From Oscillatoriaceae cyanobacterium M7585_C2015_266 (GTDB lineage Bacteria; Cyanobacteriota; Cyanobacteriia; Cyanobacteriales; Oscillatoriaceae), in NCBI GenBank assembly GCA_015295835.1, contig DVEG01000004.1, positions 62,001-126,000 of the forward strand: 64,000 bases of DNA, read 5' to 3'. This document shows positions 5,747 through 7,298 of this stretch, one piece after another. The translations under genes were made by a program, and so were the position numbers. The notes beneath the pieces were generated by a model. It did no database searches and was not told where the DNA came from. It saw only the letters and a list, made by a program, of their open reading frames with translations. How positions within the stretch are numbered: the stretch's first letter is position 1; every line of letters begins with the position of its first letter.

Positions 5747-6465
5747 TTACCAGCCTCGAGCGCTCGCTTGATATCCGATTAATTTATAAACCAATTTTGC
5801 TGCAGTAAATTCTGAAACCACCGAATCGATAAGCGGTGCCAATTCCATGACATCACAGCCGATTACTTCATGAGCCAAGAAAACTCGCCGCAGAAAAGTC
5901 GTCAGACTGTACCAATTCAAACCTCCAGGCTCAGGAGTTCCCACTCCGGGCAGGAGGGTGGGATCAAGTCCATCGAGGTCGATAGTAAAAAATACTCGTT
6001 TGGTTTGGATTTTGGCAAGTGCCTGCTCCATCCAATTTGGATTGGTGACAATCTCCCGTGCTAAAATCACAGGCAGTTGTTTTTGTTTAATCAAGTCAGC
6101 TTCTTCTTTACAAATGCTACGGATGCCGATTTGTAAAGTAGGCAATCCCATATCAACAATACGGCGCATCACACAGGCGTGGTTATAGATAGAACCCTGA
6201 TATTCATAGCGCAAGTCACCGTGAGCATCGATTTGAACTACAGTAAACGGCTCATTGGCATAAGCCAGTCGGTAAGCTTCGACAACACCGGCGGTGATGC
6301 TGTGTTCTCCGCCTAGGGCGATAACAAATTTACCGTCTTGGATGAGTTTGTAGACTGTTTTGGTTGTCACCTGGAGCATTTCTTCCGGCGAGACTTTTTG
6401 GCGATTACGAGTATCAGCGATCGCCTCATTTGTATAAATCCCTACTTCTTGACATATTTCCCGTT
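5747..6465 (-). CDS. speB: Agmatinase/arginase-family ureohydrolase, 3' exon
   Basis: The C-terminal 239 codons of a ureohydrolase. Metal-binding motifs are all present: GGEHSIT, DAHGD, and DLDGLDP (the DxDxxDP signature), so the dinuclear manganese site is complete. The frame is open upstream of the first ATG (6379), reading REICQEVGIYTNEAIADT back to 6465, where a group II intron ends. Joined to the exon at 7106-7298 it gives a continuous 303-residue protein reading ELEREICQ across the junction. This is the normal family length. Likely role: hydrolysis of agmatine or a related guanidino compound to a polyamine precursor plus urea. Function requires splicing. Confidence 0.88.
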
Positions 6466-7105
6466 GTTAAACTAAGCGCCTCCCTCACGGGAACCGCTCG
6501 TTTTCAGAACCGGACATGATGCTTTCGCCTCATCCGGCTCCTCAGTTAATGGGCCATTATTATATTAGTCTTTTACTTTCCCATTAACCGGGTGGACGTC
6601 AGCATATCCTTTAGCTTTCCCAAAGGCCTTGGCTTCTTCCACCATCCCCCCCCTCCGCATTCTGCTATTTTTAGCAGAGATTTCGTCTTGGTTGACTACC
6701 TACAATATCAACCGATTGTAGGAAACACCGAGGGGTTACTTCGTTCCTAGTGATGATTTGTTTAGAGTTTTAGGGGGGTATTATCCGCCGGGTTTATGGG
6801 CAGTGCCAGATGGTCTGAATTAGAGCAGCCATCTCCCATTACCATTGCCATTTTGGCCACAGCCTATCAGCCTAATTTGGCTGTTTGACGATAACGACGG
6901 TTGCAGCGTACCTTTCTTGCGTCCCCATGACTCCTTGCTCGATGGATACCAGATTAGGCTTCCAGCATTGCCATCTTTCTACCCCGCTTCACGGATTGAT
7001 GACCAATCGCTACCGTGGGAGTAGTGCTGTCAGGTGGGCACTGCACCGGGTGGACTTACCTTTTTGGGTTCACCACCATCATCACTTAGGCTTAACGAAT
7101 CGCAC
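6466..7105 (-). mobile_element. ORF-less group II intron inserted in speB
   Basis: A 640-bp insertion on the leftward strand. The 5' end is GTGCG (7105-7101), the group II consensus. Domain V is a 34-nt hairpin at 6540-6507 (GAGCCG...CGGTTC with a GAAA loop). Domain VI follows, with an unpaired A at 6473, eight nt from the 3' end, which is AC (6467-6466). A stretch reading CTAATTC inside domain I (6823-6817) is perfectly complementary to the last seven exon bases GAATTAG (7112-7106), as expected for an EBS1-IBS1 pair. No reverse-transcriptase ORF is present, so maturase help, if needed, must come in trans. Removing it restores the speB frame exactly. Confidence 0.92.
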
Positions 7106-7298
7106 CTAATTCTTCGTCATAACATTCCAGCTGATCAGAGGCTTCTAAAATCGCCGCTGGTCCATTTTCGCATCCTCGCCGATAGGTGGTGGTGACTTCA
7201 TAAGGTATGGGTAAGATAACGACACGTGCGGCTTCATAAGCAACTTGGATTTCAGCACCAAGAAATGGCCGCATAGCAACAGCAGTTGAAACTGACAT
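7106..7298 (-). CDS. speB: Agmatinase/arginase-family ureohydrolase, 5' exon
   Basis: The N-terminal 64 codons plus one base of the split ureohydrolase gene. It starts at the ATG at 7298 (MSVSTAVAMRPFLGAE) and contains the family's ILPIPYEVTTTYRRGCENGP segment and QLECYDEEL just before the junction. Read without splicing it would end four codons into the intron. The last bases, GAATTAG, are the predicted intron-binding site. The gene's promoter lies in the 140-bp divergent spacer shared with the alpha/beta hydrolase at 7442. Confidence 0.87.

Follow-up and report, generated by a model that had tools for sequence, protein, structure and literature searches.

Group II introns without an open reading frame (ORF) are documented in cyanobacteria (PMC2882425, PMC4649490). 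An earlier note on the DNA analysed here had called such introns rare in bacterial housekeeping genes, which holds for bacteria in general and less for cyanobacteria. In Trichodesmium, 17 introns splice in vivo, and 10 of these have no ORF (PMC4649490). Help in trans by intron-encoded proteins (IEPs) was reported for both Trichodesmium and T. elongatus (PMC4649490, PMC2882425); for Trichodesmium, it was demonstrated by expression in E. coli, according to the passage of PMC2882425 that cites Meng et al. (2005). In organelles, mobile introns became immobile and host-serving, with general maturases, and bacterial intermediates of this process are scarce. The chloroplast protein MatK is such a maturase, which is devoid of reverse transcriptase (RT) and serves several introns (PMC4424553). 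A review from 2015 considered O.i.I2 as the only known bacterial intron with a degenerate IEP whose frame was kept open (PMC4424553). According to a survey from 2022, about 30% of the representative bacterial IEPs are interrupted or short (PMC8919778), so that defects in an IEP are nothing unusual in themselves. It is less usual that selection preserves the open frame of such an IEP when it is the only intron protein present and an ORF-less client accompanies it.

The locus presented here belongs to the kind of intron known in cyanobacteria. It is unusual through the RT-dead state of its sole partner protein, the location of its sister intron in rbcX, and the loss of the elements IA and IB from its own domain I.

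The group II intron in speB

The element located at 6466-7105 (minus strand) of the window (the whole stretch of 64,000 nucleotides that was analysed) is indeed a group II intron, degenerate and ORF-less, of 640 nt (GTGCG...TTTAAC) which splits speB. The features that the earlier note had read from the sequence were all recovered, namely the GTGCG 5' end, a 34-nt domain V (DV), a domain VI (DVI) with a bulged A eight nt from the AC 3' end, the 7-base match between CTAATTC and GAATTAG, and a continuous 303-residue protein upon removal of 640 bp. The covariance-model search proposed there gave matches above the gathering thresholds, with 51.9 bits at 6466-6542 for Rfam model RF00029 (DV-DVI, threshold 40) and 56.6 bits for the plastid DV model RF04357 (threshold 53). 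DV occupies 6507-6540 (-) and displays a UG bulge as well as a single G.A mismatch in its distal stem, while DVI is located at 6469-6503 (-) with the branch-point A at 6473. The basal helix of domain I was deduced from alignment, with UUCGUU as 5' strand at 7094-7099 (-) and AACGAA at 6740-6745 as its partner. The predicted fold of the intron RNA is strong (z = -5.5), and a scan of the entire intron (6466-7105) did not reveal any ORF.

Exon 1 of speB (7106-7298, minus strand) starts with an ATG at 7298 and comprises codons 1-64 plus 1 nt, while exon 2 (5747-6465, minus strand) includes the stop codon. The part encoded by exon 2 alone was assigned to the agmatinase family TIGR01230 with 222.9 bits against a cut-off of 174.3. 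When joined, both exons give 912 nt and 303 amino acids, and the junction CYDEEL|EREIC is gap-free in an alignment with 14 uninterrupted relatives. A match was obtained in 56 of the 60 relatives searched, all of them from outside the genus; the close homologues among these are single open frames with nothing inserted at the point of the junction. Within exon 2, an internal ATG is present at 6379 with the motif GGAAG just upstream, from which a truncated product of 210 amino acids could be made from unspliced RNA.

A sister intron in rbcX and the deletion in domain I

The genome (3.98 Mb, 35 contigs, 98.48% complete) was searched for related introns with an encoded maturase, as the earlier note had suggested, and one was found. 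Two DV/DVI matches above threshold were obtained, the speB intron and one on contig C29 (L005, 5500-7457). The latter is a sister intron of 1,958 nt that carries a protein in domain IV and shares 86% identity with the speB intron across nt 17-533 (domains I to III) and 82% across the final 89 nt. The match between the two breaks between nt 533 and 552 of the speB intron, which leaves the scar of an ORF deletion in domain IV at 6554-6572 (-).

The sister intron interrupts rbcX after 7 nt, with a predicted exon junction at ATGGATA|TAAAACAA. Joining ATGGATA to TAAAACAAATC restores the beginning of RbcX (MDIKQIAKDTAKHL...), and the corresponding DNA of a relative (L090) reads ATGGATATAAAACAAATCGCC without interruption, i.e. 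an empty rbcX site. An intergenic position between rbcL and rbcX had been considered for this intron and was dropped, as the joined flanks place it inside rbcX. Both full introns of the genome are therefore located in protein-coding genes. RbcX itself is under constraint (.113/.088/.419 changes by codon position).

Each of the two introns can pair with its own exon. In speB, IBS1 (GAATTAG, 7106-7112, minus strand) pairs with EBS1 (CTAATTC, 6817-6823, minus strand) in 7 of 7 Watson-Crick positions. This EBS1 stands in the same alignment register as that of the rbcX intron, which pairs with its own exon in 8 of 8 positions, and each EBS1 pairs only with its own exon and not with that of the sister. 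For EBS2-IBS2 of speB, the candidate TCGTCA/TGACGA (6/6) is off the position seen in the sister and near chance level. The intron alignment gave no placement for EBS3-IBS3.

Close to its 5' end, the speB intron passes from CCTAA (nt 20) straight to GTGATG (nt 21), and 62 nt are missing in comparison to the sister and four relatives (scar at 7085-7086, minus strand). The missing segment holds two hairpins at the place of IA and IB in domain I, which we take to be these elements by their position and by general group II anatomy. Both hairpins are present in all other complete copies examined. The closing helix of the first one covaries (AAGCC/GGCTT, TAACC/GGTTA, CAACC/GGTTG, GGCTA/TAGCC, GGGTA/TACCC and CTGGA/TCCAG), and the speB intron has retained just the AAGCC strand. 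Among 391 genomes of the order, the shortened form was found only here. The earlier note mentioned neither this deletion nor the G.A mismatch of DV nor the sister intron. Structural completeness differs among known group II introns, so an incomplete domain I that lacks IA and IB marks a degenerate member of the group rather than a non-member. The loss nevertheless makes unaided self-splicing of the speB intron doubtful. The alpha-alpha' contact, placed in IB, has been reported as necessary for group II splicing in vitro, which also counts against self-splicing.

The remaining structure of the speB intron is well preserved. From 155 consensus pairs compared with the rbcX intron, 128 are identical, 13 have both partners changed and 5 only one. 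When the partners were slid by 1-3 nt as a control, 0-1 double changes remained versus 13. By comparison with genome G006, two or more of these double changes can be placed on the speB branch.

A third copy of about 300 nt is present on a 3.5-kb contig (C26, L006:2273-2560, minus strand). It is a relic in which the 5' end reads ATGCG instead of GTGCG (the first G being lost) and domains I to IV are mostly deleted. Related introns were also observed in G004, a relative of the same family, where several DV/DVI matches occur with one GIIM protein. There, rpoC1 is interrupted by an ORF-less intron of the same family (L084:2150-3100) with CTGCG as 5' end, and the predicted spliced protein is longer by about 8 residues, with STYICVNRD in place of Y. 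A further group II intron with no evident IEP lies downstream of an intact thiC (L079:2870-3780).

The protein of the rbcX intron and the proposed splicing of speB

One RVT_1 and one GIIM match were obtained in the genome, both within the rbcX intron, and no second domain X was found in the 98.48% that is covered. The protein of the rbcX intron consists of 369 amino acids and its GIIM domain scored 72.3 bits. In the alignment with intact relatives, YADD has become YDNS, about 25 residues are gone between motifs 3 and 4, and the N-terminal motifs (fingers) are lost. The HNH endonuclease is absent, and the thumb and domain X are conserved. The N-terminus displays a frameshift, with one surplus A in the A6 run near L005 6327, and a good start codon is lacking upstream. 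On the branch leading to this protein, changes at codon positions 1 and 2 amount to 0.30 in the RT part versus 0.17 in thumb and domain X (p = 0.0009); the RT part is thus relaxed, yet still below its own third positions. Neutral simulation predicted 7.8 stop codons for the 232 changes, while none was observed, and none of 3,000 runs remained free of stops. The lengths of the 12 indels are all divisible by three, which is partly built in, as an alignment of open frames shows only in-frame gaps.

The AlphaFold model of the protein has a pLDDT of about 90 in thumb and domain X and below 50 in the fingers. Among solved structures, it is best matched by 8fli and 6me0, both of them maturases of group II ribonucleoproteins and presumably from T. 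elongatus. Its nearest sequences are those of cyanobacterial IEPs and of PDB 6me0, which makes it a candidate for the CL type by proximity rather than by a class tree. Taken together, sequence and model suggest that the protein resembles a maturase-only, MatK-like protein, the frame of which is under selection.

The speB intron is probably an immobile, ORF-deleted sister of the rbcX intron that is spliced in trans by this RT-dead maturase. Intron removal from the speB and rbcX transcripts would be required for obtaining both full proteins. The speB intron RNA would contribute its catalytic core and the pairing to its own exon, having given up IA/IB and its coding capacity. The 369-residue protein would bind its own intron and the related one in speB, and aid the folding and branching of both, most likely by stabilising the former in cis and the latter in trans. 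In another group II ribonucleoprotein, contacts of the thumb and the DNA-binding domain on D6 are needed for branching (PMC10733145). With the loss of reverse transcription and endonuclease, neither intron would be mobile by the usual route. The earlier note had left the choice between a trans-acting maturase and self-splicing. Its statement that the intron has no RT of its own stands, and the trans-acting maturase is favoured here, since exactly one candidate exists, the RT-dead protein of the rbcX intron, and since IA and IB are lost. That such a protein may be enough for help in trans is what we infer.

Alternatively, the absence of 62 nt from domain I and the mismatch in DV could have abolished splicing, in which case speB would be a recent pseudogene or encode an N-truncated protein starting from the ATG at 6379. 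The unclear EBS2 and the GGAAG motif preceding this ATG are in line with such a scenario. However, translation from this ATG would leave out the N-terminal third of the enzyme, the open frames of both exons align residue by residue, and the intron structure shows compensatory changes. The rates of change also speak against it. In exon 2, these are.094/.014/.367 by codon position on the branch of this genome, whereas the speB intron has changed by 0.05-0.10 since its split from the sister. At intron rates, three or fewer second-position changes would have a probability of 0.006 to 1e-6 in the absence of selection, so the second positions of exon 2 evolved too slowly for a pseudogene of the age of the intron. 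Exon 1 (.077/.067/.333 on the same branch) is too short to judge selection after the insertion. The constraint on exon 2 supports the splicing of speB without proving it, and a loss of splicing is considered unlikely. That polyamine metabolism relies here on RNA splicing may be taken as a fair inference.

It is still less probable that splicing is performed by a maturase encoded outside the assembled sequence or by an unrelated host factor, the protein of the rbcX intron being then a decaying relic. The incomplete assembly in 35 contigs, the frameshifted N-terminus and the frequency of interrupted or short IEPs in bacteria (PMC8919778) would leave space for it, but no second domain X was detected and 369 codons have stayed open against the neutral expectation. 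Protein-free self-splicing of the speB intron, for which the C. tetani intron C.te.I1 is a precedent as an ORF-less intron with no related protein gene (PMC4424553) and which would be served by the catalytic DV/DVI, the branch-point A, EBS1-IBS1 and the strong fold, is just as improbable in view of the deleted IA and IB, which all other complete copies examined possess, and of the G.A mismatch in DV.

Splicing in trans by the RT-dead maturase can be extended, more tentatively, to a closed system dedicated to splicing only, in which a selected MatK-like protein without RT would serve both the rbcX intron and, in trans, the speB intron devoid of IA/IB.

Comparison with known systems

A genome with two introns and one RT-dead protein would offer a small and testable example of the intermediates between mobile and host-serving introns. 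If true, it would show how much of domain I is dispensable once a protein helps. The gene of a RuBisCO chaperone would be placed behind splicing, and RuBisCO assembly and polyamine metabolism would each have a gene that depends on an immobile maturase, in a chloroplast-like manner.

A close likeness is to the cyanobacterial group IIB introns TeI3 of T. elongatus, where the ORF was lost by deletion in domain IV and a related IEP serves the ORF-less copies (PMC2882425). The driver IEPs of T. elongatus are active RTs, and its introns are mobile and many (28) (PMC2882425), whereas the present genome combines a single ORF-less copy, from which part of domain I is deleted, with a single IEP that is RT-dead. 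Introns within protein-coding genes are shared with Trichodesmium erythraeum (PMC4649490), which differs in having many introns; an RT-dead sole IEP is not reported in the parts of PMC4649490 consulted. The degenerate IEP with an open frame and the insertion in a protein gene are reminiscent of O.i.I2 in radC of Oceanobacillus iheyensis (PMC4424553), which belongs to the ML class and for which an ORF-less client intron is not mentioned in that review. Chloroplast MatK, encoded in the trnK intron, has likewise lost RT motifs and kept domain X, with ORF-less introns located elsewhere (PMC4424553), but it is organellar and acts on many clients among group IIA introns, while the protein described here would have a single client and has cyanobacterial IEPs as relatives. 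There are precedents for help in trans to ORF-less introns of cyanobacterial genes; the delivery of such help by an RT-dead protein that is the sole intron protein of the genome would be, as far as found, new.
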